DNA from: an uncultured Bacteroidales bacterium | Lineage (GTDB): Bacteria; Bacteroidota; Bacteroidia; Bacteroidales; UBA932 | Direction of reading: 5' to 3' | DNA: 38,673 nt | Assembly: GCA_947630665.1 (NCBI GenBank) | Contig: CANRID010000022.1 | Coordinates: 1-38,673 of the forward strand | Shown here: piece after piece, positions 346 to 17,045 of the stretch | Layout of the letters: each line of letters begins with the position of its first letter | How positions within the stretch are numbered: position 1 is the first letter of the stretch | Translations under genes and position numbers: made by a program | The notes under the pieces: generated by a model | Told to the model about the DNA's origin: nothing | Database searches by the model: none | Seen by the model: only the letters and a program-made list of their open reading frames with translations

Positions 346-909
346 CTATTCAATTTTTGTGCCGTCCTTAAATGCCTCACCGACTATTTTCCCCAGCATA
401 CGATAGGAATGAGAAGTTGAATCATATGAAATTGGTTGTAACTTATCCAAATTCACCTTGCCCTGCCCATCCAAAACCGTATCATCTGCCAGCACATTGA
501 CAACCTCTCCTACAACGTGCATTTCACCCAATGCTTCCTGCATTTCAACGACCTTGCATTCAAGTGTTAAAGGATATTCGTCAATGACAGGAGCATTCAC
601 AAATTCACTTTGCGAGATATGTACTTCGGCATTCTCGATTTTGTTTTCCTTGCGCTCGGACACAAGTCCGAAATAGTCTGACAATACCAATGTTTCGACA
701 GTGGCTATACTCAGGGTAAATGCTTTAGTCTGTTCCAGATTTTCTGTTGTCTTATGGTTGAGCGATAAGTTCAATGCAACATGATGATAGCCGCACTGAC
801 CGCCCCAAGCCACATTCATAGCATTGGGGATTCCGTTTTCATCATAAGTGGCAACAATCAGTACAGGCAGCGGAGTGATTACGGGAGTATTTCCTAAATT
901 CTTTTTCAT
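346..909 (-). CDS. Flavin reductase-like FMN-binding split-barrel protein
   Basis: About 187 residues with the flavin reductase-like fold: an N-terminal TPLPVLIVATYDENG strand, the family-type phrase NAMNVAWGGQCG, and the NLSLNHKTTENL segment that packs on FMN. Family knowledge: such proteins bind FMN and reduce flavins or act as FMN oxidoreductases; the substrate here is unknown. No signal peptide, so cytoplasmic. Three in-frame ATGs occur (924, 915, 909). I prefer 909 because a strong Shine-Dalgarno GGAGGGG (916-922) sits 6 bases upstream of it; the first two ATGs overlap or abut that site. It is the last gene of the leftward operon, 2 bases after the aldo/keto reductase stop, and is followed by a clear terminator. 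Confidence 0.85.
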   Translation of the reverse strand: MKKNLGNTPVITPLPVLIVATYDENGIPNAMNVAWGGQCGYHHVALNLSLNHKTTENLEQTKAFTLSIATVETLVLSDYFGLVSERKENKIENAEVHISQSEFVNAPVIDEYPLTLECKVVEMQEALGEMHVVGEVVNVLADDTVLDGQGKVNLDKLQPISYDSTSHSYRMLGKIVGEAFKDGTKIE

Positions 910-911
910 AT

Positions 912-1754
912 TCATCCCCTCCATCCCATAAACATACGAGCGGTTTCCGCATCGTGGTGGTCAAAGAACAAACTCTTGCCTGTGTCAAGTGTGGCGATAG
1001 CGGCCATATCCTCATCGGATAGTGCAAAATCGAAGATGTCCAAGTTCTGCCGCATCCGCTCAATGTGCGTCGATTTGGGGATGATAATGACGCCGCGCTG
1101 AATGAGCCAACGCAAGGCGACTTGTGCCACGCTCTTGCCATATTTATGACCGATTTCGGCCAGCATCGGATTCGTGAAGAAGTTGTTGCGACCCTCGGCG
1201 AACGGTGCCCACGACATGATGTGCGTGCCGAATTCCTCCATGATTCTCTGCGCTTCGATCTGTTGGTTGAAGACATGGGTCTCCACCTGATTGACCGCCG
1301 GAACGATTTCCATATTACTGGCGATGTCGATGAAGTGGTCGGGATAGAAATTACTTACGCCGATAGCGCGGAGCTTGCCTTCCTTGTACGCTTCTTCCAA
1401 TGCGCGGTACGCACCGTAGCGGTCGCAGAAAGGCTGGTGCAACAGCATCAGGTCGATGTAGTCGGTCTGTAATTCGCGCAGGCTTTCGTCGATGGAAGCC
1501 TTTGCTTTTTCGTAACCGTAGTTGGAAATCCATACTTTCGACACAAGGAAAATCTCCTTGCGGTCGATGCCGCTTTTGCGGACAGCATTACCTACTCCTT
1601 CTTCATTGTGGTAGGCTTGCGCCGTATCAATCATACGATATCCCACGCTGAGGGCATCACTTACATAGCGCTCGCACTCGGCGGGCGATACCTGATAGAC
1701 GCCGTAACCCATCCGGGGCATTTCGACGCCGTTGTTTAATTTCACTGTATTCAT
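912..1754 (-). CDS. Aldo/keto reductase, cytoplasmic
   Basis: 280-residue AKR of the 2,5-diketogluconate-reductase-like type (TIM barrel, NADPH-dependent carbonyl reduction). The catalytic tetrad is complete: Asp in MIDTAQAY, Tyr in the same motif, Lys in LVSKVW, and His in LLHQPF (D43, Y48, K73, H106 from this start). The NADP-binding phrase IPKSTHIERMRQN is near the C-terminus. The ATG at 1754 overlaps the upstream flavodoxin stop as ATGA, suggesting translational coupling; an ATG four codons earlier (1766) is possible. No export signal, unlike the AKR at 3356. Its operon partners (two exported flavodoxins and a flavin reductase) suggest a role in a reductive pathway; the carbonyl substrate cannot be read from sequence. 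Confidence 0.93.
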   Translation of the reverse strand: MNTVKLNNGVEMPRMGYGVYQVSPAECERYVSDALSVGYRMIDTAQAYHNEEGVGNAVRKSGIDRKEIFLVSKVWISNYGYEKAKASIDESLRELQTDYIDLMLLHQPFCDRYGAYRALEEAYKEGKLRAIGVSNFYPDHFIDIASNMEIVPAVNQVETHVFNQQIEAQRIMEEFGTHIMSWAPFAEGRNNFFTNPMLAEIGHKYGKSVAQVALRWLIQRGVIIIPKSTHIERMRQNLDIFDFALSDEDMAAIATLDTGKSLFFDHHDAETARMFMGWRG

Positions 1755-2311
1755 TGTTTTATCCATTTTTTGATTTCTTCTGATTTAGCAGGCAAACGAA
1801 GTCCTTTTCTGATTTTCAGAGAAGGGTAGCCTTTTTTCAGTGTAGCATCGGCTTCCGACATAGGGCTTTCGTAAGAAGTGCAGAAAGGAAATATGACCTT
1901 GTCTTTCAATTGTTCGCCGTAATTGTCGAGGAAAGTACGGATTACGGCCGGTTCTTCATGCCACCAAATCGGAAAACCGACAAATACCGTATCAACCATT
2001 GCAAAATCAATGTCAATCGGTTTGATTGCCGGACGAAGCGACTGATTGAGGTGTTCCTGCGTGCAACGGGACTGCTTGTTTACCCAATTGACATCTTCCG
2101 ATGAATAGGGCTGTTCCGGTAGGAGCCTTATCATTTTGGATCCTGTTACTTCTGCAACCTGCTTGGCTGCCAGTTCGGTATTGCCGGAATGTGTGAAATA
2201 GACGATTACTGATTTCATGTTATTATTGTTTTTCGCTTGAGCTTGTATCATACTGCTGCACGACATGGTTATAACCGCTGCCATTGCAAGAATGTTTTTA
2301 AGAATATGCAT
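1751..2311 (-). CDS. Exported flavodoxin-like protein
   Basis: 186-residue flavodoxin-fold protein. Residues 1-26 form a signal sequence ending around IQAQAK; a weak lipobox-like TMSC lies at 15-18. The FMN phosphate loop THSGNT is at residues 40-45, after strand SVIVYF. The flavin-contact phrase VFVGFPIWWHEEPAVIRTFLD and the FPFCTSYESPMS segment are typical of the flavodoxin_4 group seen in Bacteroidales and clostridia. Role by family: one-electron carrier or FMN-dependent reductase. The predicted location outside the inner membrane is unusual for a flavodoxin. It is second in the leftward operon, 19 bases after the flavodoxin lipoprotein gene and overlapping the AKR start. Confidence 0.88.
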   Translation of the reverse strand: MHILKNILAMAAVITMSCSSMIQAQAKNNNNMKSVIVYFTHSGNTELAAKQVAEVTGSKMIRLLPEQPYSSEDVNWVNKQSRCTQEHLNQSLRPAIKPIDIDFAMVDTVFVGFPIWWHEEPAVIRTFLDNYGEQLKDKVIFPFCTSYESPMSEADATLKKGYPSLKIRKGLRLPAKSEEIKKWIKQ

Positions 2312-2330
2312 ATCTATGTAAGATTATATG

Positions 2331-3008
2331 TTATTTAATTATTCCGATTTCTTTCAGCCATGAGGCAATGTTCTGTTCATTGATTCGTCCGCTTGTCAGT
2401 CCTTCCCCGGTCAGATGTTCGGCATCGGGAGTAAGCTCTACGATGCGTGCCAATGTTTCATCACGGTAAGTAGCAGCGTAAGTGCAGAACGGAACGACCG
2501 TTTTACCTTTGAAGTCATAGCTTTCGGTAAAGGTACAAATAATCATCGGAGTAGTCCACCACCATACGGGACAACCGATGAATACGGTGTCGTACTGTTC
2601 CCAATTTTCCACTTTGCCTGCAATAGCCGGACGTGCGTTATTGTCTTTCTCCTCACGCGCAACTTCTGTGCAGGGAGTATATTCCGTAGGATAAGGTACG
2701 ACCGGCTCGATGCGGAAAACATCCGCTCCTGTCTGCTCGACGATTTCCTGCGCCATACGTTGCGTTGTGCCGCCCCAACTGAAATAAACAACTAACATTT
2801 TGCTGTCACCGCTTGGGGTGTCAGGTGTTTCTGGTTCATCGGGATTTTCCGGATTGTCTGGGTTCTCAGGATTCTCATCTTCACCTTCATCAGGTGTTTC
2901 AGGAGTTTCAACTCCCGGAATTTCGGGTTCGTAGTCTTCATCGGGAGAACAAGCTCCAAATGTCAGGACGGCAACAGCCGCCATCAGATAAATCAAATAA
3001 TTTTTCAT
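2331..3008 (-). CDS. Flavodoxin lipoprotein with Pro/Glu-rich linker
   Basis: 225 residues. Lipoprotein signal with Cys20 in the lipobox FGAC, followed by a low-complexity tether (about residues 21-69) of repeated ENP/PDT/PET units. A flavodoxin domain follows with loop SWGGTT (77-82) after MLVVYF and the flavin-contact phrase FIGCPVWWWTTPM. The C-terminal part closely parallels the flavodoxin at 14172 (shared FKGKTVVPFCTYA, YRDETLARI and ELTPDA), so the two are paralogs. The long acidic tether implies a surface- or periplasm-facing flavodoxin held off the membrane. First gene of the leftward operon; its -7 box is at 3132-3139 and its 5' leader carries the repeat at 3059-3107. Confidence 0.9.
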   Translation of the reverse strand: MKNYLIYLMAAVAVLTFGACSPDEDYEPEIPGVETPETPDEGEDENPENPDNPENPDEPETPDTPSGDSKMLVVYFSWGGTTQRMAQEIVEQTGADVFRIEPVVPYPTEYTPCTEVAREEKDNNARPAIAGKVENWEQYDTVFIGCPVWWWTTPMIICTFTESYDFKGKTVVPFCTYAATYRDETLARIVELTPDAEHLTGEGLTSGRINEQNIASWLKEIGIIK

Positions 3009-3058
3009 ATATACATTATTTAATTATTGATTGTTCGTTTTTCAAACGCCACTTTTCT

Positions 3059-3107
3059 CGCCTCGGCATAGCTCAAACGAGTTTGGCTCTGCACTCGGCT
3101 TACCGAA
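3059..3107 (-). repeat. CGCCTCGGCATA...CTCGGCTT dispersed repeat, copy A
   Basis: About 49 bases beginning CGCCTCGGCATA and ending CTCGGCTTACCG, with an internal CAAAC-GAG-TTTG mini-hairpin. It lies in the transcribed 5' leader of the leftward operon. Two diverged copies of the same element, with the same outer blocks, are in tandem at 20123-20290. Function unknown; I recall similar sequences being common in Bacteroidales intergenic regions, but cannot verify that here. Confidence 0.7.
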
Positions 3108-3131
3108 AAGGTTTCCGTGTTAATTCGGATG

Positions 3132-3139
3132 CAAAGTTA
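3132..3139 (-). promoter_or_regulatory. -7 box of the leftward redox operon
   Basis: TAACTTTG on the minus strand matches the Bacteroidetes consensus TAnnTTTG. Transcription would start near 3125, giving a leader of about 115 bases that includes repeat copy A. No good -33 TTTG is visible at the usual spacing, so the promoter may need an activator. Confidence 0.65.
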
Positions 3140-3303
3140 GATAGGTCTGTTTATATCAGTGGAATAAAAAACACGGCATGAATTACCATTTTTTCGGAAG
3201 TTGATATTGAACTTTAACGCCTTAAATATCGGATGAATATAAAAACCGAAATAAGTGTAGTTTCCACCGAATTTCTTGTAAAGCCTGCCCGAAAGGTTCT
3301 TTC

Positions 3304-3311
3304 TACCTTTG
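3304..3311 (+). promoter_or_regulatory. -7 box of the rightward redox operon
   Basis: TACCTTTG matches TAnnTTTG and lies 44 bases upstream of the AKR start at 3356. A possible -33 element (TTG at 3276-3278) is 25 bases away, longer than ideal. Together with the box at 3132-3139 it makes this 347-bp gap the divergent control region of the whole module. Confidence 0.65.
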
Positions 3312-3355
3312 CAAAGTCGGATGAAGATAATGTAATCAATTAAACAGATAAAGAT

Positions 3356-4306
3356 ATGAGAAAGACAATCATTACCGGACTTATGGCGTTTGCCTCCATG
3401 ATATGCCACACCTCTTTTGCGCAGGATATTTATAAAACTGCCGCAGGCGTACCGATGGTACAACTCAACAATGGTATCCTGATGCCGCAATTCGGATTGG
3501 GCACCTTCCTACAGCCCTCCGATGAAGTGTGTGAACAGTCGTGCCTCACCGCTTTGAAAGCCGGATACCGTCACATCGACACCGCACACGCCTACAATGA
3601 CGAAGCCGGAGTGGAACGTGCCGTGAAGAACAGCGGTATTCCGCGCGAAGAAATATGGATTACCAGCAAACTTTGGCCCTCTGAATATGGCGAAGGTAAA
3701 ACGATGGAAGCTATAAATAAAATGCTGACTCGTATGCAGTTGGATTATATCGACCTGCTTTATGTGCATCAGCCTGTGGGTGATTTCGTTGGAGCTTGGA
3801 AAGATATGGAAAAAGCTGTTGCAATGGGTAAGGTACGTGCATTGGGAATAAGTAACTTCGATGCCAACGATGAGGTGTTCAACAAGATTATGAGCGAATC
3901 AACCGTGAAGCCTGCCGTGCTCCAAATGGAATGTCATCCATACGCACAACGTTTGGCTATGCGTGAAAAGGTAAAACCTTATGGCATACAGGTAGAATGT
4001 TGGTTCCCGTTGGGAGGTGCAATGAGTAATGGGGCTCTGCTAAAAGATCCTACGATTATGAAAATTGCAGAAGCACACGGAAAAACTCCGGCACAAGTAA
4101 TCCTACGGTGGCACATCCAAGAAGGCTTTTCTGTTATTCCGGGTGCATCGAATCCTGATTATATCAAAGAGAACATTCAGATTTTCGACTTTGAGTTGAA
4201 CGATGAGGAAATGGCACAGATGCAGTCGCTTAACAAGGAGAAACGTTTCTTCAATGTCACCTACGAACAAGTGGAGCAGATGGGCAAAATGCCCATGCGG
4301 GATTAA
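3356..4306 (+). CDS. Exported aldo/keto reductase
   Basis: 316-residue AKR with a cleavable signal peptide, MRKTIITGLMAFASMICHTSFA, cut before QD. The barrel then begins with VPMVQLNNGILMPQFGLGTF. The tetrad is intact: D75 and Y80 in HIDTAHAY, K105 in ITSKLW, H138 in YVHQPVGD. The NADPH-binding end phrase IPGASNPDYIKENIQ is retained. Family knowledge: reversible NADPH-dependent reduction of aldehydes and ketones. An exported AKR is odd because free NADPH is not expected outside the cytoplasm, so either the cofactor is delivered with a pre-folded (Tat-like) protein, although no twin-arginine motif is seen, or the electron source differs. First gene of the 13-gene operon. Confidence 0.92.
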   Translation: MRKTIITGLMAFASMICHTSFAQDIYKTAAGVPMVQLNNGILMPQFGLGTFLQPSDEVCEQSCLTALKAGYRHIDTAHAYNDEAGVERAVKNSGIPREEIWITSKLWPSEYGEGKTMEAINKMLTRMQLDYIDLLYVHQPVGDFVGAWKDMEKAVAMGKVRALGISNFDANDEVFNKIMSESTVKPAVLQMECHPYAQRLAMREKVKPYGIQVECWFPLGGAMSNGALLKDPTIMKIAEAHGKTPAQVILRWHIQEGFSVIPGASNPDYIKENIQIFDFELNDEEMAQMQSLNKEKRFFNVTYEQVEQMGKMPMRD

Positions 4307-4348
4307 AGCTGTATGCAAAATCTAAAATGTACAATTTATTCTAATAAT

Positions 4349-5503
4349 ATGAACGGTTTTATTTATCAATATCCTGTCAAACAGTATTTTGGCAATGGAT
4401 GCGCTGAAGAAGCGATTAAGACGGAACTAAAAAAAGTTGGCAACAATGTGTTGTTGGCTTATGGAGGAGGTTCGTTGAAACGTACAGGTCTTTATGATAA
4501 ACTGCGGACATGGTTGGAAGAGTTGGATAAGAATGTTACTGATTTTGGCGGAATCATGCCTAATCCGACTTATGCAAAAGTTCAGGAAGGTGCAAAACTC
4601 GTCCGTGAAAACAATATTGATTTTATTCTTGCAGTTGGAGGAGGCTCGGTTATAGATTGCTGTAAGATTGTCTCGGCACAAGCCATGCTTGATAAGGATA
4701 TTTGGGATATGTGGTATGATGAACATCGTCTTCCGACTAAGTTTATTCCGATGGGAGCTGTTGTAACCGCATCCGGCACAGGAGCGGAGCAGAACAACGG
4801 AGCTGTGATTACCCATGAGGAGAAGAAATTGAAACAACCGCTTTTCGGAGCATTTCACTCATTTGCCGTCTTGGATAGCGACCTGACGAAGACTGTGCCC
4901 ATGAAGCAGGTCATCAGCGGTGCCTTCGATACCCTTTCTCACTGTATGGAAACTTATATGGGCAAACCCCAAGCGACGAATCTTTCAGATGAAATCAACG
5001 AAGCAGTGATGCGAAACGTGATATCGAATTTGCGCTGCCTCATTCAAAACCCTGATGATGATTTCGCACGCGGCGAACTGATGTGGGCTTCGGCAATGGC
5101 TGAAAACGGAATGCTTAAACTCGGCAAACAGACCGATTTCCAATGCCACATGATTGAGCACGCCGTAGGAGCTTATACCGATTGCAACCACGGACAGGGG
5201 TTAGCGGTGATTCATCCTGCGCTTTATCGTCGGTTGTTAGATGCCGGAACAGAGAAATTGGCTCGTATGGCGGAAACCGTATGGGGAGTGAAAGGCGCGA
5301 CGTCCAAAAAGACTGCCATGCAAGGTATTGAAGCTTTGGAAGCGTTTATCCGTGAAATAGGGCTTCCGACTCGTTGGTGTGAAATGGGTATTACGGACGA
5401 AAGGCTGCTTCGTGCTGCTGCTGATACCTGTTTTATTACACCGGGATGCTGCCGTCAGCTCACCAGAGATGAGATTTTCGAGTTATTGTTGGAATGTATG
5501 TAA
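4349..5503 (+). CDS. Iron-containing alcohol dehydrogenase (YqhD/BdhA type)
   Basis: 384 residues from the preferred start MNGFIYQYPVKQYFG, the usual N-terminus of this family; an upstream ATG at 4313 would add 12 poorly conserved residues. The dinucleotide motif GGGS is at 97-100 (VGGGSVID). Metal ligands are intact: D194 and H198 in GAFDTLSH, H267 in CHMIEH, and H281 in NHGQGLA. Role: NAD(P)H-dependent reduction of aldehydes to alcohols or the reverse, in the cytoplasm. It starts 42 bases after the AKR and 11 bases ahead of a diverged paralog. The base composition reads more AT-rich than the next two genes. Confidence 0.93.
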   Translation: MNGFIYQYPVKQYFGNGCAEEAIKTELKKVGNNVLLAYGGGSLKRTGLYDKLRTWLEELDKNVTDFGGIMPNPTYAKVQEGAKLVRENNIDFILAVGGGSVIDCCKIVSAQAMLDKDIWDMWYDEHRLPTKFIPMGAVVTASGTGAEQNNGAVITHEEKKLKQPLFGAFHSFAVLDSDLTKTVPMKQVISGAFDTLSHCMETYMGKPQATNLSDEINEAVMRNVISNLRCLIQNPDDDFARGELMWASAMAENGMLKLGKQTDFQCHMIEHAVGAYTDCNHGQGLAVIHPALYRRLLDAGTEKLARMAETVWGVKGATSKKTAMQGIEALEAFIREIGLPTRWCEMGITDERLLRAAADTCFITPGCCRQLTRDEIFELLLECM

Positions 5504-5514
5504 TGTAGATATAT

Positions 5515-6612
5515 ATGAAAGACTTTATATTTAGAAACGATACCAAACTGTTCTTCCGCAACGATATTCGGGAGACAATCCTTGAAATAGTAAAAGGTCA
5601 TAAAGTGATGTTTGTCTATGGCAACGGCTCCGTCAAGCAGAACGGCTGTCATGCCGACATCGTGCAAACGCTGACCGAAGCCGGGATTTCTTTTGTGGAA
5701 TATGGCGGCTCTTCCAGAGAGTTTGCCAAGATAGAAGAGGGCATCCGCTTCGCAAAGGCAAATGGGGTGACAATGATTATCGGTGCGGGCGGTGCCAGCG
5801 TAATGGACAGTGCCAAGCTGATTGCTTTCGGCTTCTATCACGAAGCGGACCTCTGGGACTACCTGAAAGGCAAATCGCCCTATGGACAGGAAAGACTTCC
5901 GTTGGCTCTTATCCCGACTTACCCTTCCAGCGGCTCGGAGAACGGACTGGGAGCGGTATCGGTAGATTCAAGGACAGGCGACTTCGGGACGGCATACGGC
6001 ATCCCCGCCGACTATGCCCTGCTTTGCCCCAAATACTCCTTGACATTGGATAAGGAAATGACCACCTACACGGGATTGGTGACACTAGTGCAGCTCACCG
6101 CCTGTATCTTGGGCGACAAGAACAAGATGTCCTACGATGCTGGCATTTCTTACGTAAGAAACGTGCTTGAAGCGACCCGAACTCTGCGACAGCATCCCGA
6201 TGACCTCGATGCGAGGGGCACTATCCTGATGGGGGCTTCACTCTCCACCTCTTCCCGTCTGGGCATTGGCAAGGAAGAACCGTTTGCATACGAGATATAC
6301 GAACTGGAGTTCCTGCCCGAAGTGCTGTTCGGCAGTACCTATCGCCGCAGCCTCACTTCAGTCTTCCCTCGATTCCTGCAAGCGATGGGAAAGCACCATG
6401 CGGAAGAGATTCGGAACTACTACCGGGATGCTTTCGGCTTCGAGGGTTCTATGGAAGATTCTACCCAAAAGCTGATGACGTTCTTCACTGAGCTATGCAT
6501 ACCGATGTACTATGAAGGAACAGTCACCCATGAAGCGGTCGATGCCATTCCGTGCGAGACCGAACTAAGCAAGGAAGAAGTGTTCAACATCATGAAAGCA
6601 ATGATTCATTAA
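5515..6612 (+). CDS. Iron-ADH-fold paralog lacking the metal ligands
   Basis: 365 residues, clearly related to the gene before it (VYGNGSVKQNG, IIGAGGASVMDSAK, PTYPSSGSENGLGAV, HPDDLDARG match the family layout). The nucleotide-binding GG-S-D pattern at about 91-98 is kept. The Asp-x3-His ligand helix is replaced by TGLVTLVQLTAC (186-197), and the region holding the other two histidines reads FAYEIYELEFLPEVLFGST (258-276) with no His. All four metal positions therefore seem lost. It may be a metal-independent dehydrogenase, a regulatory partner of the intact ADH, or an enzyme with new chemistry. The reading frame is intact and codon use is normal, so it is not an obvious pseudogene. Confidence 0.85.
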   Translation: MKDFIFRNDTKLFFRNDIRETILEIVKGHKVMFVYGNGSVKQNGCHADIVQTLTEAGISFVEYGGSSREFAKIEEGIRFAKANGVTMIIGAGGASVMDSAKLIAFGFYHEADLWDYLKGKSPYGQERLPLALIPTYPSSGSENGLGAVSVDSRTGDFGTAYGIPADYALLCPKYSLTLDKEMTTYTGLVTLVQLTACILGDKNKMSYDAGISYVRNVLEATRTLRQHPDDLDARGTILMGASLSTSSRLGIGKEEPFAYEIYELEFLPEVLFGSTYRRSLTSVFPRFLQAMGKHHAEEIRNYYRDAFGFEGSMEDSTQKLMTFFTELCIPMYYEGTVTHEAVDAIPCETELSKEEVFNIMKAMIH

Positions 6613-6628
6613 AAAGGTAGAAGCAACT

Positions 6629-7630
<1,002 letters not shown>

Positions 7631-7633
7631 ATT

Positions 7634-8350
7634 ATGAAACCGAAAATAATATGTCATATCATGAGTTCCGTTGATGGACGACTGATAGATAGCCGTTGGA
7701 CTGCTCCCTATAAAGCGGAACATGGAGAACTTTTACAAATATATTCAGCCATCGGTCGTGAGCTAAACACTGACGCATGGATGTTCGGAAAAAATACCGT
7801 CAGAGGTATATTCCCTTATAAGTTCGCAGTGTCAGGTCATACCTTAACGCCTGATACACCGACTATATTTATCGGCGAACGCCACTCCAAACGTTTGTTT
7901 ATCATTGCAGACCCGGAAGGAGATATCTATTTCACTTCCGCTACCGTGCGAGGAGATAATATACTTGTTATTGCCGGACAAAATGCAACAGAAGAATATT
8001 TAGCCCATTTACGGGAGAAGCAGATTTCGTATGTTATCATTAGTGATGCAGCCAATCTTCGAGAAGGACTTGAAACGGTCGGTCGTGAGTTTGGAATCCG
8101 TAGTATATCAGTACAAGGTGGCGGTATTTTGAACGGAGCGTTACTTGCCGATAAGTTGATTGACGAATTGAGCCTCGTTATCTATCCCGGTATTGACGGG
8201 CTTTCGGGGGTGCCTTCCATCTTTGAGTATATAGGAGGGAAAACGGAACATCCGGCACAAGAACAACGCTTACAACTGATTTCTGCGTCTGAACGGGAAC
8301 ACGGGGTAATGTGGATGCAATATAAATTTCATAAGAATACACGCAAATGA
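7634..8350 (+). CDS. RibD C-terminal / dihydrofolate reductase-like reductase
   Basis: 238 residues with the RibD_C (DHFR-fold) pattern: MSSVDGRLIDSRWT at the N-terminus, WMFGKNTVRG, then SVQGGGILNGALLADKLIDELSL as the NADPH-binding loop and helix. There is no deaminase domain, so this is the stand-alone reductase type and not riboflavin biosynthesis RibD itself. Family knowledge: NADPH-dependent reductases of pyrimidine-like or other heterocyclic substrates; the actual substrate is unknown. Cytoplasmic. Its stop overlaps the next gene's ATG (ATGA at 8347-8350), indicating translational coupling to an exported esterase. Confidence 0.88.
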   Translation: MKPKIICHIMSSVDGRLIDSRWTAPYKAEHGELLQIYSAIGRELNTDAWMFGKNTVRGIFPYKFAVSGHTLTPDTPTIFIGERHSKRLFIIADPEGDIYFTSATVRGDNILVIAGQNATEEYLAHLREKQISYVIISDAANLREGLETVGREFGIRSISVQGGGILNGALLADKLIDELSLVIYPGIDGLSGVPSIFEYIGGKTEHPAQEQRLQLISASEREHGVMWMQYKFHKNTRK

Positions 8351-10269
8351 GAAAGATAATGTTACAAACTATATTGCTCTGTTGCTTGTGTATGGCTTCC
8401 TGCTCGGACATCGAAGATAACAAACCGATTCTACCACCGGATCAGGAACAAGAAGATCCAGACACGCCTGACCGACCGCAAGACTACACAGGGCTGATAA
8501 ACAAGACCAATCCTGTTCCCGCCGTTTACGAACAAGAGGCGGAACACCGGGGCGAGGTGGTACGTATCGACTACAATACGCGCGATTATGCCGAAGAAAC
8601 CGGAGCGGCACGCACCAACACGGCATACGTTTATCTGCCATACGGTTACGATAATACTTCCGACCAACGGTACAATGTGCTTTACTTCGTGCATGGACAT
8701 TATGGTACGGCATCAACCACATTTGAAGCAGAGAACGGACTGTTACGCAAACTTCTCGACCACATGACCGAGAACGGTGATATGGCTCCGACCATCGTAG
8801 TTTCACCGAGCTACAACTACGGAGATCCTACCCCGGACTATGCCGATGCCGACCCGTATTGCGAAGCTCTGCCGCAGGAACTTGTGAACGACCTTATACC
8901 TATTGTTGAAAGCCGTTACCATACCTACGCAGAAAGTACGGATGCTGCAGGCTTGGAAGCTTCTCGTGAACACCGTGCCATAGGAGGTTTCTCAATGGGA
9001 GCCGTCACGACATGGTACGCTTTGGAACATACGCTTTCTTGTTTCAAATACTTCATGCCGGTCAGTGCCGACTGCTGGTCATTAGGACGATTCGCAGGAA
9101 TGAACCGACCGGACGAAACGGCACGGTATCTTGCCGATATTGTCCGTCAATCCACATACGCAGGAAACGGATTTTATATTTGGGCAGCAAGCGGTACGGA
9201 TGATTCAGCATATAGGGAAACATTGGTTCAAGTGGAAGCAATGGCACGACTGACAGATATATTTCCGCTCTCTAATCTTACCTTTCATGAGAAAGACGGC
9301 GCACGTCATGAATACCGACCTATGGCAGAATACCTCTACAATGCCCTGCCGTTTTTCTTCCCGAATAATCAAGACAGGAATACTTACGGGCATCTGACCA
9401 CCGCCAATACCGTCAAAGATGTGGTGGAGCACGAAGCGTTTCGTGGATTCGGACAATTCATCCTGCCTGCCGAGCGGAAGTATGACGATGATTTGCCACT
9501 TGCGAATGTCGCGAGTATGTTGCCTTACCACAATTATATAACAGGTGAGCGTGCCGTGGAAACAATCAATACGATGATAGACTATGTACACGACGGCAAC
9601 CGTTTGTTTTATGACATCTATTCCGATGCGGAGAAGCAAGCGGATACACGCAAGAACAATACGGGTCTGTTCTTCTTTCGGGGAGAACCGAGCAAACCGT
9701 TTGCCATCGTATGTCCGGGTGGTGGCTGGTCGTATGTAGGAGCTATCCACGAAGGATTTCCATTAGCCATTGCATTGAGTGAAATGGGGTACAATGCCTT
9801 TTCCATTCAATATCGGACAGGAGGCGCACAAGTGGCGTGTGAAGACCTTGCACAAGCCATCGACTTCATTATGCGTCACGCAGAGGAGTTACAGGTATCC
9901 ACCGAAGATTATTCGTTGTGGGGTGGTTCGGCAGGGGCACGCATGGCGGCTTATCTCGGCTCTTACTCCACACAGGGATTTATCAATGTAAACAATCCAC
10001 GTCCGGCAACAGTCATTATGGGCTATACAAGCCATACGGATTATACACGTGATGACCCTCCGACCTACGTGGTTATCGGGGATAATGACGGTATCGCCAG
10101 TGCATCGGTTATGAGACAACGTGTAGAAAACCTTCAAGCATTGGGGATAGATGCAGAGTTTCACCTATTCCCGAACTTGCGTCATGGTTTTGGATTAGGT
10201 ATCGGGACGAGTGCGGAAGGTTGGGAAAAAGATGCCGTAAAGTTTTGGGAGAAGTATATAAATAAATAA
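8347..10269 (+). CDS. Lipoprotein with two fused alpha/beta-hydrolase (esterase) domains
   Basis: 640 residues. Lipoprotein signal with Cys19 in MASC, then an acidic/Pro tether. The first domain (about 60-340) resembles feruloyl or D-type esterases: [10 protein letters not shown] and nucleophile S216 in GGFSMG. The second domain (about 400-640) resembles acetyl-xylan/carboxyl esterases: oxyanion CPGGGWSY, nucleophile S528 in GGSAG, an Asp in VIGDNDG and a His in LRHGFGLG. Both active sites look complete. Inferred role: surface or periplasmic cleavage of ester-linked groups, perhaps from plant or drug-like esters, feeding carbonyls or alcohols to the reductases of the operon. Single uninterrupted frame, so a true fusion. 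Confidence 0.9.
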
Positions 10270-10283
10270 ATAAACAAGCGAGT

Positions 10284-11387
10284 ATGAAAAAGATAATAAC
10301 AACCGTATTATGTGCGGCAATGGCTGTATGCAATACCTTAAACGCACAGGAAACAATGAAAGAGAACAAAGCATTTGCCGTGGCTGACCTGTCAGGTTTC
10401 AAGAGCCACAACAGCAACCCGTGGGGACTGGTCTATGCCGATGCCCTCACTGAGAACAAGCAGGGGGCGGTGAACATCCACCCCATCACCTACGATCTGA
10501 ACGGATTGAAGATTGCCGCCAATGTCTATACCCCTGCCGGCTATGACGGGGCGAAAAGCTATCCAGCCCTTGTCGTGGCGCATCCCAACGGTGGCGTGAA
10601 GGAACAGGTAGCAGGACTCTACAGCCAACGGTTGGCGGAGGCAGGCTACATCTGTCTTGCCTTCGATGCCGCCTATCAGGGAGCCAGCGAGGGCGAGCCG
10701 CGCAATACGGACAAGCCCGCTTACCGTATCGAGGACATCCATCGTGCCGCCGACATTCTGCTGCAATATCCCGGTGTGGATGCCGGGCGTGTAGGCATTC
10801 TCGGCATCTGTGGCGGTGGCGGCTATACGTTGGCAGCGGCGCAGACCGACAAGCGTTTCAAGGCGGTCGCCACGCTGAGTATGTTCAACACAGGACTGGT
10901 GCGCCGCAATGGTTTCCTCGATTCACAGATGAATGACGTGCAGCAACGTCTTGCCGATGCCTGTGCCGCCCGCCAAAAGGAAGCAGAGGGCGGCGAGCCG
11001 GAATATGTAGGCGACATGAGCGGTGTGACACCCGAACAGGCAGCGAAACTGGCTTTCGACCTCTATCGCGACGGCTACACATATTACCTGCAGAGCCACG
11101 CGCATCCCAACTCTACCTTCCGCTACACCAAGAGCAGTCTGGTCGATTTGTTCGCCTTCGATGCCAGCGCGAACATGTACCTCATCAACCAACCGCTACT
11201 GATGATTGCAGGAAGCATCGCCGACACTTTTTATATGACTGAGCAGTGCTACAGCCGGGCGACAGGCACGCAGCAGAAGGAGCTGTTCCTTATCCCCGGA
11301 GCCACGCATATCAAGACATATTATGTGCCGGAGTATGTCAGTCAGGCGGTGCAGAAGCTGACGGAGTTCTTCGGGAAGAATCTTTAA
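10284..11387 (+). CDS. Exported alpha/beta hydrolase with Cys-type nucleophile elbow
   Basis: 367 residues with a signal peptide ending at NAQE (about residue 22). The hydrolase domain has the oxyanion phrase [12 protein letters not shown], the acid-side phrase [11 protein letters not shown] and a late His in [11 protein letters not shown]. The nucleophile elbow reads GICGGGG, so position 176 is Cys and not Ser, as in dienelactone hydrolases and YcjY-like proteins. Family knowledge: such Cys enzymes open lactones or cleave activated esters. The gene is GC-rich compared with its neighbours. It lies 14 bases after the double esterase and 12 before the FMN-reductase lipoprotein. Confidence 0.88.
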
Positions 11388-11399
11388 TCCTATAAGACA

Positions 11400-12071
11400 A
11401 TGAAAAGAACCGTTATCTACATGGTCGTAAGCCTCCTTATGGGGGCTTTGACCGCTTGCACAAGCAAACAAAGTGATAAGAGTGCGGAGCGATACCACAT
11501 CAATTTCTCGGAGACATCGCCCGTACAGAAAGAGAACAAAAGTGTACTGATAATCTCTGGCAGTCCCCGCAAGGGTGGCAATACCGACCTGTTGTGCGAT
11601 GCCTTCGCCCGTGGAGCGGAAGAGACAGGCGGACAAGTGGAGAAAATCTTCCTTGCCGACTACCGCATTGATTACTTCTCGGAAGCGGACGAGCAGCGTG
11701 TGGGCGACCGTGCCAGTGAAGCGGAAGATGATGTGCCAATGCTGGTTGATAAAATGGTGCGTGCCGATGTCATTGTATTGGCAAGTCCTGTCTATTATAT
11801 GAACATCACGGGACAACTCAAAACCTTTATAGACCGCACTTTCGGGCGTTACCGTGAGATGAAGGATAAGGAGTTCTTCTACCTTACCGCTTGCGCTGAC
11901 CCCGAAGAGAGCACGGCAGACTGGGCTATCAATGCTTTCCGTGGTTTCGTAATGTGCCTGCCCAATCCTACGGAGCGTGGTATGGTGAAGGCTATCGGTA
12001 TGGGGCGCAAAGGTGCGGTCAAAGGCAGCCAGTTTGAAGAGGAAGCGTATCAATTAGGTAAAAACATTTAA
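11400..12071 (+). CDS. NADPH-dependent FMN reductase-fold lipoprotein
   Basis: 223 residues. Lipobox LTAC with Cys20, about 28 residues of tether, then a flavodoxin-like NADPH-dependent FMN reductase domain: FMN loop SGSPRKGGNTD (53-63), the ADVIVLASPVYYMNITGQLKTF segment that covers the flavin, and a C-terminal helix. Family knowledge: these proteins bind FMN tightly and reduce quinones, azo bonds, iron or other acceptors. Here the protein is predicted to be lipid-anchored outside the cytoplasm, where NADPH is not available. That fits the neighbouring exported flavodoxins and suggests electrons arrive by another route. Two bases separate it from the next gene. Confidence 0.88.
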   Translation: MKRTVIYMVVSLLMGALTACTSKQSDKSAERYHINFSETSPVQKENKSVLIISGSPRKGGNTDLLCDAFARGAEETGGQVEKIFLADYRIDYFSEADEQRVGDRASEAEDDVPMLVDKMVRADVIVLASPVYYMNITGQLKTFIDRTFGRYREMKDKEFFYLTACADPEESTADWAINAFRGFVMCLPNPTERGMVKAIGMGRKGAVKGSQFEEEAYQLGKNI

Positions 12072-12073
12072 TT

Positions 12074-12931
12074 ATGAAACTTGGTATTTTTAAGAGTTTG
12101 GCGTTCATATTGTTCGCTGGCTTTGCAATCTCTTGTTCGGAGAACAACGAGAATGACCCCGAACCAACCTACACGGTAACGGTATCGGCAACAGAGGGCG
12201 GAACCGCCACAGTAAACAAAACCACTTATACAGAAGGTGATGAAGTGACCGTGACTGCCACGGCGAACGAAGGGTATCTTTTTAACGGATGGTATGAGGA
12301 TGAAGAGTCGGTTGCAACAGATGCCGTTTACTCATTTGTTATGCCGGAAAGAGACATTGTGTTGCAAGCCTGTTTCGAGCAAGAGGCTGTTGCACCTGTT
12401 ACAGCAGAAGCCGTTGATTTGGGGTTGAGCGTGAAATGGGCTTCATGGAATGTCGGAGCATCGGATCCGGAAGAGTTCGGTGGCCGCTATGGATGGGCTG
12501 ACCCAACGGGCGAGAAACAGACAACCGAACTTGATGATTATCCGAGTGCGACACCGCCGGAAAATATCTGCGGAACAGAGTATGACATTGCAGGCACACA
12601 ATGGGGCGACGGCTGGCGTCTGCCTTCACAAGCCGAATTTCAGGAACTAGTTGATAATTGCACATGGGAATGGACGGAAATAAATGGTGTGGCAGGACGC
12701 CGTGCGACTGCCGCTAATGGCAATTCTATCTTCTTCCCGGCTGCCGCATCACGCGATGGCGAAACCGTATCGAATCAGGTAGGACAACGTGGGTGCTATT
12801 GGAGCGGCACACTCTATCCCGGTAATGATGCCCGTTATGCCTATTACTTCTATTTCTATGAAGGTAACCAACAGCCTGCGCGTAACAATCGCCGCTACAT
12901 GGGGTATTCAGTGCGTCCTGTAAAAGAATAA
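12074..12931 (+). CDS. FISUMP-domain lipoprotein with InlB-type repeat
   Basis: 285 residues. Lipoprotein signal ending in Cys21 (FAISC). Residues about 33-105 form one bacterial/InlB B-type repeat (YTVTVSATEGGTATVN, then GYLFNGWYED and ERDIVLQACF). Residues about 110-285 match the Fibrobacter major-paralogous (FISUMP) type domain: VDLGLSVKWASWNVG, GDGWRLPSQAEFQEL, YWSGTLYPG, GYSVRPVKE. Such proteins are surface-exposed and of unknown biochemical role. Its place inside a redox/esterase operon is unexpected; it might bind substrate or tether the complex at the cell surface. No enzyme motif is seen. Confidence 0.87.
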   Translation: MKLGIFKSLAFILFAGFAISCSENNENDPEPTYTVTVSATEGGTATVNKTTYTEGDEVTVTATANEGYLFNGWYEDEESVATDAVYSFVMPERDIVLQACFEQEAVAPVTAEAVDLGLSVKWASWNVGASDPEEFGGRYGWADPTGEKQTTELDDYPSATPPENICGTEYDIAGTQWGDGWRLPSQAEFQELVDNCTWEWTEINGVAGRRATAANGNSIFFPAAASRDGETVSNQVGQRGCYWSGTLYPGNDARYAYYFYFYEGNQQPARNNRRYMGYSVRPVKE

Positions 12932-12948
12932 TTGAAGCAAATTGAATT

Positions 12949-14160
12949 ATGAAACAGCTAATCATATCATTCATTTCATCACTGTTTATTTGCACATCAG
13001 TCACAGGATGTACAAATGATGATGATGTTGCGCCTAATGTCGATATTCGCATCGAAACCAATGAAGTAACAGCCATAACTTCCGACAATGCCCTTTCCGG
13101 TGGTCGTATCATCGGCGAAACGAAGTCGGTTGCAGAGTTCGGCATCTGCTGGGCAACGAAAGATAATCCTACCCTGTCCGACAGCCACAATACCGGAGCC
13201 GGGGATGCAGGTTCTTTCGCTTGCTATGCCACCGGACTGTCGGCTAATACGACTTATTATGTCCGTGCGTATGCCGAGACCTCCGCAGGTACGGTTTACG
13301 GGCAGTCCCGTCAATTCACAACGCTTGCCGCATCAGGCGATGACACCCCTCCGACGGGTGGGGATGACAATCAAGACCCGCTGGCTTCGACCATCTATCT
13401 GTGGCAGGAAGGCAATATGGCAAAAGTCACGAACTATACGGGCAATCAAGGCTCTTATCAAGATCCGCCATCTTTCCGTCCGTATATGAACTACTTCCCT
13501 GTTGCCGAGGGAATGAAGGTGAAAGGGGCGGTTCTTGTATGTGCGGGCGGTGCGTTTCAGTTCCGCAGCGACCAAATGGAAGGAACTCCCGTCGCTCAAT
13601 GGTTTGCCCGTCACGGTTATCAGGCTTTCGTGGTGAATTATCGTGTGCAGCCCTATCGGATGGAGGAAGGAAGCCTCGACTTGGCTCGTGCCGTCCGCTT
13701 CGTCCGACAGCACGCTGCCGACTATGGAATAAGTCCTGACGACATCGCTTCGGTAGGATTCTCTGCGGGAGGTATTCTTTGCGGTGATGAGGCTCTTAAT
13801 TTCGATGAGTTGGTAAACGGTACGGCACTCGCCTCAGACTATCGCCCCGATGCGCTCGACCAAGTTTCTGCCAATGTATGCACGATTGGAATGATTTACG
13901 CCTTCTACGGTCGGTTGAGCGTGGCTTCTACCGATGTGGAGAAGTTCCGCTCCTCGAAGATTCCGCCGACATTCTTTGCTTACGGCACACGCGACCCGTT
14001 CTATCGACAGTTCCAAGCCTGTGCCGATGCCGTGCGTGAAGCGGGTGTAGAGGTGGAGGAACACGAATACGAAGGTATGCCGCACGGATTCGGATATACG
14101 CACGAGGCGTGGATGGTGAGCTTCGACAGTTGGATGACTAAAATAATGGCTAATAATTAA
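12949..14160 (+). CDS. Lipoprotein esterase with N-terminal fibronectin-like domain
   Basis: 403 residues. Lipobox VTGC, Cys21. Residues about 32-126 form a fibronectin-III-like domain common in Bacteroides surface proteins (AEFGICWAT, GLSANTTYYVRAYAET, GQSRQFTTL). After a Gly/Asp-rich linker comes an alpha/beta hydrolase: oxyanion AVLVCAGGAF, nucleophile S272 in GFSAGG, D349 in YGTRDPF, H379 in MPHGFG. The triad is complete. The domain is related to the second domain of the 8347 gene. Inferred role: surface esterase or deacetylase. It is 17 bases after the FISUMP gene and 11 bases before the flavodoxin. Confidence 0.9.
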   Translation: MKQLIISFISSLFICTSVTGCTNDDDVAPNVDIRIETNEVTAITSDNALSGGRIIGETKSVAEFGICWATKDNPTLSDSHNTGAGDAGSFACYATGLSANTTYYVRAYAETSAGTVYGQSRQFTTLAASGDDTPPTGGDDNQDPLASTIYLWQEGNMAKVTNYTGNQGSYQDPPSFRPYMNYFPVAEGMKVKGAVLVCAGGAFQFRSDQMEGTPVAQWFARHGYQAFVVNYRVQPYRMEEGSLDLARAVRFVRQHAADYGISPDDIASVGFSAGGILCGDEALNFDELVNGTALASDYRPDALDQVSANVCTIGMIYAFYGRLSVASTDVEKFRSSKIPPTFFAYGTRDPFYRQFQACADAVREAGVEVEEHEYEGMPHGFGYTHEAWMVSFDSWMTKIMANN

Positions 14161-14171
14161 CACTGAAAGAT

Positions 14172-14747
14172 ATGAAAACAAGACTGATGACCTTGCTCGC
14201 CGCCTTGCTATGCTGTATGGCAGCGAGCGCACAAACAGACTCCGTAAAGGAGTCATCTACCAAGAAAATTCTTATTGCCTACTTCAGTTGGGGTGGCAAC
14301 ACGCAGCACGTGGCAGAACATATTGCCTCACTGACAGGCGGCACGCTCTTCCGCATCGAACCCGAAAAGCCTTATCCTACCGACTACAAAACCTGCACCG
14401 AAGTGGCGAAGAAGGAGAAGGAAGCCGATGCCCACCCTGCCATCAAGAATAAGGTGGAGAACTGGGATGAGTATGACACGGTGTTCATCGGCTGCCCCGT
14501 ATGGTGGTGGACTGCTCCAATGATTATCAATACCTTCACCGAGATTTACAGTTTCAAGGGGAAGACTGTAGTACCATTCTGTACCTACGCCTCGACCTAT
14601 CGGGATGAAACGTTGGCACGCATCACAGAACTGACACCTGATGCCAACCATCTAAAAGGCTTCGGTGCAGTAAGTAAGAATACGAAAGGCATTGCGGAGT
14701 GGCTGAAAGAGATAGGAATGACAATGGATAACCGGAAAAAGGAATAG
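14172..14747 (+). CDS. Exported flavodoxin
   Basis: 191 residues with a type I signal peptide ending ASA before Gln21. Flavodoxin domain: strand ILIAYF, FMN loop SWGGNT (39-44), FRIEPEKPYPTDY, flavin-contact phrase FIGCPVWWWTAPM, then FKGKTVVPFCTYAS and YRDETLARITELTPDA. It is a close paralog of the flavodoxin at 2331-3008 and of the broken one at 15434, but with no lipobox. Role by family: FMN-bound electron carrier. It is the eleventh gene of the operon, one base before the next flavodoxin. Confidence 0.92.
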   Translation: MKTRLMTLLAALLCCMAASAQTDSVKESSTKKILIAYFSWGGNTQHVAEHIASLTGGTLFRIEPEKPYPTDYKTCTEVAKKEKEADAHPAIKNKVENWDEYDTVFIGCPVWWWTAPMIINTFTEIYSFKGKTVVPFCTYASTYRDETLARITELTPDANHLKGFGAVSKNTKGIAEWLKEIGMTMDNRKKE

Positions 14748-14748
14748 T

Positions 14749-15420
14749 ATGAAAAAGTGGTTTTATATTATGGCAACACTATTGTTTGTAAGTAGTGTTA
14801 TAGTTGCCTGTTCAGACGATGAGCCGAATAACCAAGATGGCGATACAGATATTGAGGAGGCAGTGCCGGGAACCAATCATAAAATCTTAATAGCCTATTT
14901 TTCAGAACCCCTTCCCGATGGTGTGGATGCTGTAACTTCGGCAAGTCGTGTCATTGTAGATGGAGACCTCTATGGAAGTGTTCAATATGTAGCAACTGTG
15001 ATTGGAGAAGTAACGGGTGGTGATATAGTACGCATACAGACGGCACAACCTTATCCCGGTAATTTTGATGATTTGGCGGATCAGGCGAATAATGAACGTC
15101 AGAACGATATTCATCCGGCAATCGCTACGGAGATAGACAATTTCGATAATTACGATGTAGTTTTTGTCGGTTACCCGATTTGGTGGTATCAGATGCCTAT
15201 GGCTATGTATTCTTTCTTCGATAAGTTCGACTGCAATGAAAAAACGCTTATACCTTTCTCTACACACGGAGGAAGCGGATGGTCGGGAACGTTAGAAGAT
15301 ATAAAAGGTTTAGTTCCGAATGCTACTATGGTTAATGGTTATAGTATCTCAAGGAACAATACTGCAACTTCAAGAAATGGTATATTGAATTGGTTACAAG
15401 AAATTGGTATGACAGAATAA
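14749..15420 (+). CDS. Flavodoxin lipoprotein with an enlarged FMN loop
   Basis: 223 residues. Lipobox IVAC, Cys21, acidic tether. The domain begins HKILIAYFSE. Between that strand and the following helix (SVQYVATVIGE) lies an extra segment, about residues 54-77, containing DGVDAVTSASRV, where ordinary members have only a short Ser/Thr-Gly-Asn-Thr loop. The later phrases FVGYPIWWYQMPMAMYSFFD and THGGSGWSGTLEDI are standard. I believe similar insertions occur in other anaerobe flavodoxins, so this is probably a recognised variant. It could alter the FMN phosphate site. More AT-rich than its neighbours. Confidence 0.88.
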   Translation: MKKWFYIMATLLFVSSVIVACSDDEPNNQDGDTDIEEAVPGTNHKILIAYFSEPLPDGVDAVTSASRVIVDGDLYGSVQYVATVIGEVTGGDIVRIQTAQPYPGNFDDLADQANNERQNDIHPAIATEIDNFDNYDVVFVGYPIWWYQMPMAMYSFFDKFDCNEKTLIPFSTHGGSGWSGTLEDIKGLVPNATMVNGYSISRNNTATSRNGILNWLQEIGMTE

Positions 15421-15433
15421 AAACTGATTGTAT

Positions 15434-16026
15434 ATGAAACGTATATCATTAATTCTACTTTGTCTGGCAGCAATAGTGCTGTTGCTGCCAGCTTGCTCGA
15501 AAGATTCGGACACGCCATTGTACGAACACGACACTATCAAGTATGATGCGAACTGCAAAATTCTCGTTACTTATTTCAGTTGGAGCGGCAATACCCAACA
15601 CCTTGCCCAAACTATAGCCGATGCTACCGGTGCAGACCTTTTTCGCATTGAAACGGTCAATCTTTACCCGACAGATTACAATGAGTGTACGGAGGTAGCT
15701 CGTGAAGAACTGGATAACGAGTCCGTCCCGAATTGAACGGCACTGTGGAGAATCTTGACGATTACGATGTGATTTTCGTAGGCTGTCCTGTCTGATGGCA
15801 TACCGCACCGATGGCTATATGGTCGTTTCTCGAAAGTTCTGAATATGATTTTTCAGATAAGATTATCGTACCGTTCTGCACCTATGCTTCGACTTATCGG
15901 GAGGAAACACTTGCTAAAATAGTAGAGCTGACTCCCGATTCCAAGCATCTGCAAGGATTCGGTACGACCGGAAAGAATACGGGAGGTGTGGAAAACTGGT
16001 TGCGAACGATTCATATTATACAATAA
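15434..16026 (+). pseudogene. Flavodoxin lipoprotein, broken by frameshift and nonsense codon
   Basis: The ATG at 15434 opens a lipoprotein signal (Cys21 in LLPAC) and a good flavodoxin start (ILVTYFSWSGNTQHLAQ). After EELDNE the frame breaks: one base is missing at about 15722-15723, giving a stop at 15736-15738 (TGA after VPN), while the correct continuation RPELNGTVENLDDYDVIF lies in another frame. That second frame then meets TGA at 15793-15795 where paralogs have Trp (GCPV-stop-WHTAPM). The rest, from MAIWSFLE to the stop at 16026, is intact. Two independent lesions argue for a real pseudogene and against one sequencing error. Last gene of the operon. Confidence 0.9.
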
Positions 16027-16370: not shown

Positions 16371-16417
16371 TAAAAACAGCTTCTTGTTTTTCAAATTCTT
16401 ATCCTTTGTTTTTGTTT

Positions 16418-16973: not shown

Positions 16974-17045
16974 AACGCCGATTCTTGCGGATTCTTTCGT
17001 TTGGCTGCAACGTGCAAAAGTCGAAAAATATTTGTTGTTTCTTTG

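Follow-up and report, generated by a model that had tools for sequence, protein, structure and literature searches.

A horizontally acquired reductase, flavodoxin and hydrolase gene island of Bacteroidales with a shared predicted operator at a fixed promoter distance

Introduction

The nearest described layout to the locus analysed here is that of Escherichia coli, in which the AraC-type regulator YqhC controls yqhD-dkgA in response to glyoxal and furfural, and YqhC, YqhD and DkgA protect the cell against glyoxal, furfural and other aldehydes, according to the available parts of two reports (PMC5297802, PMC8262776). The present locus is a divergent array of reductase, flavodoxin and hydrolase genes (the module) from an uncultured Bacteroidales bacterium; it lies on contig CANRID010000022.1 of GenBank assembly GCA_947630665.1, and the stretch of 38,673 nucleotides that was analysed is called the window. 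As in E. coli, genes for an AraC-type regulator (truncated in the window), an iron-containing alcohol dehydrogenase (Fe-ADH) and an aldo/keto reductase (AKR) stand together around a divergent promoter that is predicted to be regulated. Unlike the E. coli locus, the module is mobile and has many more genes, among them those for putatively exported flavodoxins, a putatively exported AKR, hydrolases and a second Fe-ADH without metal ligands. The layout may work like YqhC-YqhD-DkgA, most of its parts being new to that kind; the NCBIfam matches of the module's AraC protein are weak, the best of them being HpaA. The module is a gene island of modular build that numerous Bacteroidales carry, often those of animal guts, and related clusters occur in Clostridia. 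It is read here as an expanded YqhC-YqhD-DkgA-type regulon against reactive carbonyls or electrophiles, mobile, AraC-switched and provided with an added envelope arm, a reading for which there is about as much reason for acceptance as for doubt.

The NapH-like and NapGH envelope electron-transfer systems (PMC8238504, available part) are comparable in that a polyferredoxin of the source genome, under the same predicted operator as the module, matches both NapH and NapG, and differ in that the partners here are flavodoxins and aldo/keto reductases. A NapH-type membrane Fe-S protein is absent from the module in the window and is encoded elsewhere in the genome, on contig C1. The riboflavin-degradation (fin) neighbourhood of Clostridium scindens, as set out in the accessible part of a preprint (PMC12934955), likewise belongs to anaerobic gut bacteria, is rich in oxidoreductases, includes an alcohol dehydrogenase and is patchily distributed; identity with fin was rejected, as the RibF, class I aldolase, aldehyde dehydrogenase and glycine-reductase-like genes given for it there were not found among the window proteins. 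The iron-regulated fldA-DUF2023 operon is a flavodoxin operon of the same phylum, Bacteroidetes, but in the available portion of its description (PMC10434189) one FldA stands beside DUF2023 and others, with no AKR, Fe-ADH or esterase partners. Full-text literature searches, assessed mostly by the titles listed and mostly without subscription papers in their coverage, listed no paper recognisable as a description of this cluster or of exported Bacteroidales flavodoxins.

Organisation of the gene array

The window is the entire contig C22 of a 2.24-Mb source genome (60 contigs, 93% complete). An earlier note on this DNA had described 17 genes, four leftward (346–3008) and thirteen rightward (3356–16026), and the open reading frame (ORF) coordinates confirm this layout, with intergenic gaps of at most 19 bases, some overlapping genes and a control region of 347 bases (3009–3355) between both runs. 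Pfam bears out the family calls (Flavin_Reduct, three Aldo_ket_red, two Fe-ADH, RibD_C, FMN_red and Flavodoxin_4) and the count of three hydrolase proteins with four catalytic domains, as three alpha/beta-hydrolase proteins were found, one of them two-domain. The array is real, but only 16 of its genes are intact: four of the five flavodoxins claimed stand, and the fifth (15428–16026) is a pseudogene, its open frame ending at 15736 and the remainder of the domain lying in another frame with an in-frame TGA. Both iron-ADH-fold proteins belong to that fold family, but the second, FeADH2, is without the metal-ligand residues; the family list also lacked the rightward gene 12074–12931, which encodes an InlB-repeat/FISUMP lipoprotein-like protein outside all the families named. 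The features of the array are as follows.

297–330, minus strand: probable terminator behind the leftward operon, with a stem of 8 bp, a loop of 18 bases and a T-rich tail (289–296), read by eye; its loop exceeds the length allowed in the hairpin scan, which did not list it
346–924, minus strand: flavin reductase-like protein (Flavin_Reduct), by family profile match
912–1766, minus strand: AKR1, DkgA-like aldo/keto reductase with IPKS cofactor motif and no signal peptide seen, 92% identical to Odoribacter lunatus
1751–2311, minus strand: flavodoxin Fld1 (Flavodoxin_4), signal-like N terminus (heuristic)
2331–3008, minus strand: Fld2, lipoprotein-like flavodoxin (profile match and signal heuristic)
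3132–3139, minus strand: predicted promoter box of the leftward operon, TAACTTTG, TAnnTTTG type
3171–3199, plus strand: predicted operator 1, 28.1 bits in this feature list, 31 bp from the leftward box
3244–3272, minus strand: predicted operator 2, 21.9 bits in this feature list, 31 bp from the rightward box
3304–3311, plus strand: predicted promoter box of the rightward operon, TACCTTTG, TAnnTTTG type
3356–4306, plus strand: AKR2, aldo/keto reductase; N terminus signal-like, catalytic tetrad conserved, IPGA...Y in place of IPKS...R
4313–5503, plus strand: FeADH1, iron-containing alcohol dehydrogenase (YqhD/YugJ/butanol-dehydrogenase type), metal-ligand motifs present
5515–6612, plus strand: FeADH2, Fe-ADH-fold protein without metal ligands
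6629–7630, plus strand: AKR3, aldo/keto reductase, by family profile match
7634–8350, plus strand: RibD_C-type reductase, by family profile match
8347–10269, plus strand: two-domain alpha/beta-hydrolase (Esterase and BD-FAE), lipoprotein-like (profiles, signal heuristic)
10284–11387, plus strand: dienelactone-hydrolase-type protein, signal-like N terminus, GxCxG motif by eye, PDB relatives YcjY (5xb6) and PA2218 (2hdw)
11400–12071, plus strand: FMN_red protein, lipoprotein-like (profile match, signal heuristic)
12074–12931, plus strand: InlB-repeat/FISUMP protein, lipoprotein-like (profile match)
12949–14160, plus strand: BD-FAE-type esterase, lipoprotein-like (profile match, signal heuristic)
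14172–14747, plus strand: flavodoxin Fld3, signal-like N terminus
14749–15420, plus strand: Fld4, lipoprotein-like flavodoxin (profile match, signal heuristic)
15428–16026, plus strand: fifth flavodoxin, pseudogene with frame change and in-frame TGA

Co-occurrence in relatives

A named-genome collection was scanned with the Fe-ADH, and the best 80 of 165 relatives (59–87% identical) were taken with at most 10 kb on each side. Host groups were assigned by record title and comprise 46 Bacteroidales loci and 34 others; L056, titled Roseburia, resembles a Bacteroidales contig and is counted among the 34. Counts over 42 Bacteroidales loci, and the operator set, omit L062, L064, L067 and L071, which hold no AKR, flavodoxin, recurrent hydrolase or RibD_C gene. 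As many loci are short, all co-occurrence counts are lower bounds. Near the Fe-ADH an AKR was found in 57 of the 80 loci, a flavodoxin in 55 (EFR1 flavodoxin-ferredoxin included), a recurrent hydrolase in 44 and RibD_C in 28, and the Fe-ADH stands in an operon-like run in 66. AKR and flavodoxin occur together near it in 45 of the 80 relatives; the outcome that would have refuted the single system of the earlier note, genes scattered in relatives and never together, was not observed. Ten named genomes have 38 Flavodoxin_4 genes in all, and 20 of these fall within module loci, which make up 0.6% of the DNA (binomial 1.7e-34, a value too small because of tandem flavodoxins and related strains); two of the ten have none inside a module locus.

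Gene order and content are shuffled across hosts. An AraC gene (two subfamilies) is present in 24 of the 46 Bacteroidales loci and in none of the 34 others, and a LysR gene in 22 of the 34. In L065–L101, mostly Clostridia by title, the same families stand beside LysR together with genes for an ArsP-type permease (12/34), DUF362 (8) and ECF transporters (7), the ArsP and ECF genes possibly encoding substrate or flavin transporters; SDR genes were found in 8 of the 34 loci. Cupin proteins are encoded near the module in 15 of the 46 Bacteroidales loci. A hydrophobic membrane protein without Pfam or NCBIfam match recurs in 11 of the 46 (e.g. L048:3012–3977) and directly precedes the Fe-ADH in L047 and L048; it is a candidate transporter.

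These partners bear on the model of the earlier note, a catabolic system in which exported hydrolases would free a carbonyl or enone from dietary or host esters, lactones or conjugates (plant phenolics, steroids, drugs), envelope and cytosolic reductases then reducing it, so that the cell would gain carbon or an electron sink. The frequency of hydrolases near the dehydrogenase, the recurrence of cupins, membrane protein, ArsP-type permease, SDR and ECF genes, and the body sites named in record titles, which are gut or rumen compartments (e.g. L057–L059, L064, L065), would suit such a system. Yet no SusC/D pair, ring-cleavage or CoA enzyme was seen among the recurrent partners scanned (a subset of the neighbours), among NCBIfam models the core scores best with two enzymes that detoxify as a pair, and the E. 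coli layout detoxifies and is not catabolic; a catabolic role is considered rather unlikely.

Operator and promoter spacing

Common to both operons is the predicted operator TTACGG.ttga..TACc.TTTTTACgGaa, with two CGG half-sites 21 bp apart; in the window each operon is served by one such operator, exactly 31 bp from a TAnnTTTG box. Half-sites at this distance are as expected of an AraC-type direct repeat, and the AraC protein would be the one to bind the predicted operator. The operator was derived from short words over-represented ahead of the relatives' module genes, and the first matrix was built from ten sites obtained with a fixed expression. When the whole 38.7-kb window was scanned on both strands with this matrix, which is blind to promoter distance, the top two sites (27.9 bits at 3171–3199, plus strand, and 17.1 bits at 3272–3244, minus strand) both fell inside the control region, and the third-best score was 11.9 bits. 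The better of the two scores was reached by 0 of 2000 shuffles of the control region and 0 of 200 of the window, a test that covers the 27.9-bit site alone. A control-region motif found by eye (CCGAAA-GGTT / TCGGATG) was dropped, being present in 0 of 126 module upstream regions of relatives.

Of 39 first-pass sites in the relatives, 29 have the TAnnTTTG box at exactly 31 bp, two at 30 bp and one at 10 bp, and seven are boxless, against a chance background of 0.0032 for the 31-bp spacing. With the matrix rebuilt from 39 sites, the window's own locus excluded and a spacing of 30–32 bp, the operator was found ahead of module genes in 53 of 126 upstream regions, spread over 31 of 42 loci, and in 9 of 152 control upstream regions of the same set of loci (Fisher 2.7e-13; as the relatives are not independent, this and the co-occurrence P values are too small). 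Some of the nine control regions precede AraC genes or likely module genes. The plain operator and promoter pattern gave 20 matches in the 80 loci and 0 in the reversed control, and the exact pattern 26 matches in seven genomes (∼22 Mb; five of them had supplied seed sites) and 1 in the reversed control; 15 of the 26 lie inside module loci (∼0.13 Mb), with 4 of 4 in O. lunatus.

The claim that the array is a single integrated system with a common control region has good support, the same operator standing at the same distance on both operons, as has the view that the module behaves as one system under common control, a regulon; the operator gives this regulon a precise definition across Bacteroidales. 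The shuffled content and order, the tyrosine integrases that adjoin the module in 5 of 46 Bacteroidales loci and the remnants at its right border would also be expected of a patchwork of unrelated accessory genes that travel on a mobile element without a common task. Such a patchwork is held to be highly improbable: one operator with 31-bp spacing stands ahead of many different module genes, and in two phyla these families come together again next to regulators of different types, AraC and LysR.

The regulon in the source genome

The operator-promoter pattern has four exact matches in the source genome and four with one mismatch, compared with 1 in the control. Two of the exact matches are in the window, one is on C7 and one on C18. 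The region C1:129819–132748 encodes the membrane polyferredoxin that matches NapH and NapG, followed by an AKR-ferredoxin protein with a Tat signal, and the polyferredoxin gene is preceded by a predicted operator 30 bp from the promoter box. C19 carries a complete AraC gene that belongs to the subfamily of the module's regulator, module genes being absent from the 16 kb examined there. On C7 the exact operator sits between an AraC-type gene and a dienelactone-hydrolase-type gene; with a tyrosine-integrase relative these form a tiny second island of like kind (C7:16985–21679; L204, L212).

The polyferredoxin could also be accounted for by a respiration-like disposal of electrons in the envelope, from menaquinol through the NapGH-like protein and exported flavodoxins to reductases, with any carbonyl or enone as acceptor and detoxification as a secondary effect. 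The NapH/NapG-like protein and the Tat AKR-ferredoxin stand under the same operator here and inside the module in O. lunatus, and 20 of the 46 Bacteroidales loci (20/42 and 0/4) hold one or more members of a set of four partner families, Fe-S or DUF362, but the polyferredoxin itself occurs in just 8 of the 46 and several core enzymes look cytosolic. In the available part of the description of the NapH-like proteins (PMC8238504) these are proposed as trans-membrane electron donors to varied reductases and FMN_bind or ApbE is a mark of the systems; no Pfam match to either was found at E 0.001 among the module proteins of the window or the partners scanned. Electron disposal as the main task is regarded as decidedly unlikely.

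Horizontal transfer and island borders

The island is horizontally acquired, and its mobility is well supported. In O. lunatus, 10 of the 16 intact window proteins are 72–92% identical (for the two-domain esterase the match covers just 302 of 640 residues, and for AKR3 it is split in two) versus 51% for an FtsK-like protein (named by eye) of the source genome. Among 199 genomes of the source family, an Fe-ADH of at least 60% identity was found in 2, source included (matches at E 1e-60), and the RibD_C protein was matched in 7 (E 1e-10). The distribution is thus sporadic, with close relatives in distant hosts, as is typical of an island.

The O. lunatus island has a near-identical order, with tRNA-Ser and tyrosine integrases, then AKR1 and flavodoxins leftward and two operators at 31 bp. 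Rightward follow AKR2, Fe-ADH, flavodoxin, EFR1-type flavodoxin-ferredoxin, NapGH-like polyferredoxin and Tat AKR-ferredoxin, and then FeADH2, AKR3, RibD_C, esterase, hydrolase, BD-FAE, flavodoxin, full-length AraC and cupins. Fld3 has a counterpart of ∼60% and Fld4 one of 45% identity, and Fld1 has no close partner; for the flavin reductase, FMN_red and FISUMP proteins no counterpart was found in this island comparison. The FISUMP protein, unmatched at E 1e-8 in any of the 80 module loci, is a possible late passenger of the operon. The O. lunatus counterpart of AKR3 (L063 17041–18034) matches in two frames, and this copy is perhaps broken or misassembled.

The window copy is partly decayed, with one dead flavodoxin and a truncated AraC regulator, which the earlier note had overlooked. 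At the right border lie the following features.

16171–16389, plus strand: AraC regulator remnant, residues 3–75 of 268; O. lunatus has a full-length gene at that place
16418–17171, no strand assigned: ∼0.7 kb flanked by two perfect direct repeats of 19 bp, with a short HATPase_c_4/HTH gene inside (16437–16973, minus strand)
17303–17390, minus strand: tRNA-Ser(CGA), its 3′ end facing the module, a candidate attachment point of the island

The repeat-flanked segment sits where the AraC gene breaks off and resembles a small mobile or recombination scar.

The tRNA genes suggest a tRNA-Ser integration site in the window host and in O. lunatus, where the integrases lie between tRNA-Ser and module. 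Attachment-site (att) repeats of the tRNA 3′ end were not detected by 14–20-base words in the window, genome-wide for one 25-base stretch with at most 2 mismatches, or, in the contig of O. lunatus, with 12–24-base words. In the window the contig ends at base 1, before the island's far border is reached, and no module-side integrase was noted. A plasmid origin was rejected, all 140 Fe-ADH-matching plasmid records being below 60% identity. An empty-site test was abandoned, as the window's genus is too diverged (flanking proteins 53–62% identical in the nearest copies) and synteny around the anchor protein 18872–20056 was insufficient. Around the cation-efflux gene, two to five of the window's fimbrial-side genes are conserved in G003, G190 and G211, and module genes are absent from these stretches of 19 kb; because no tRNA stands beside that gene in these three, they give no clean island junction, and no tRNA was found in L162–L170.

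Enzymes and predicted export

The best NCBIfam models are YqhD (PRK15138) for both Fe-ADHs and DkgA (PRK11565) for AKR1 and AKR2, all four matches falling under the curated cut-offs (FeADH1 239 bits, cut-off 645; AKR1 242 and AKR2 222 bits, cut-off 425) and thus marking relatives, not equivalogs. FeADH1 retains the Asp/His metal motifs and the cofactor motifs. FeADH2 is an Fe-ADH by sequence and by predicted fold (Foldseek E-values), and its metal ligands are missing in 6 of 6 sequences aligned (window and five relatives). Its predicted structure is of moderate quality (pLDDT 70, pTM 0.62), and the modelled domain arrangement is unreliable because the Foldseek TM-scores reach just 0.29–0.46 among the best 50 matches listed. 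The catalytic Asp, Tyr, Lys and His are conserved in the window's AKR2 and in all 16 aligned relatives; the positions of these residues, and of the metal residues of the Fe-ADHs, are those presumed for the families. The IPKS...R motif, seen in AKR1, holds the 2′-phosphate of NADP; it is replaced by IPG(A/S)...(Y/H) in 17 of 17 AKR2 sequences, 14 of which were re-aligned with the same result.

Signal peptides were called by a heuristic rule that also flags some members of presumed cytosolic families (AKR3, flavin reductase, 6/19 RibD_C and AKR1 outside Bacteroidales). Signal-like N termini were found by this rule in 48 of 50 flavodoxins of the 42 Bacteroidales loci and 35 of 40 of the 34 other loci; the corresponding counts were 15/17 and 4/9 for AKR2, 0/40 and 0/34 for FeADH1, and 0/20 and 4/30 for AKR1. 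Judged by their N termini, individual module proteins may be exported.

Proposed function

For the favoured reading, a regulon directed against reactive carbonyls or electrophiles, the following course is proposed. In Bacteroidales an AraC-type activator, bound to the two half-sites of the operator 31 bp ahead of the TAnnTTTG box, would switch the operons on together. In the cytosol AKR1, AKR3, FeADH1, the RibD_C protein and the flavin reductase would use NAD(P)H to reduce carbonyl compounds that are reactive, or conjugated ones, and in the envelope the putatively exported hydrolases, flavodoxins, FMN_red lipoprotein-like protein and AKR would act on the same or precursor compounds. Electrons for the envelope proteins might come from menaquinol through the NapGH-like membrane ferredoxin, whose gene on C1 stands behind the same predicted operator. 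Detoxification as the role, the substrate and the route of the electrons are all putative.

Several observations weigh against this reading. Besides the dependence among relatives, 13 further first-pass operator sites are oppositely oriented, some being the same operators viewed from the divergent neighbour, and 11 of the 26 exact operator-promoter matches fall outside module loci. Ten of the 80 loci have none of the four partner kinds (AKR, flavodoxin, hydrolase, RibD_C), gene content is highly variable, and the NapGH-like gene is as infrequent as given above. The likeness of FeADH1 and the AKRs to YqhD-DkgA is one at subfamily level, as other PDB relatives score higher: for FeADH1 the PDB search ranks Bacillus subtilis YugJ and the Thermotoga butanol dehydrogenase (TM0820) over YqhD, and AKR2 scores better with other AKRs than with DkgA. 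The signal-peptide rule is uncalibrated. Of the AraC gene in the window some three quarters are missing, so that regulation in the window must come from elsewhere (e.g. the AraC gene on C19) or be lost; the metagenome-assembled genome is incomplete, and the truncations could be assembly faults.

A more specific proposal is a mobile envelope-reduction regulon in which electrons would pass from menaquinol through the NapGH-like protein and exported flavodoxins to exported AKRs with a tightly held non-phosphorylated or unusual nicotinamide, mirrored by the NAD(P)H-dependent set inside. It is judged unlikely; if true, carbonyl and conjugated compounds would be reduced outside the cytosol without soluble NADPH. 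The putatively exported AKRs with altered cofactor motif and the flavodoxins raise the question of the electron source of Bacteroidales envelope reductases. With the module, bacteria, many of them from guts, would gain a transferable set of reductases and esterases that could govern the fate, in that habitat, of reactive aldehydes, quinones, drugs and plant compounds.

Neighbouring genes

Beyond the tRNA gene, a cation-efflux gene and a fimbrial cluster occupy 17800–28043 (OmpA-like, DUF3575, FimA and Big_2/DUF4906 proteins). Two adjacent AAA_14/DUF4143 ATPase genes lie at 28908–31791, followed by a gene for a Fic-domain protein at 32910–34088.

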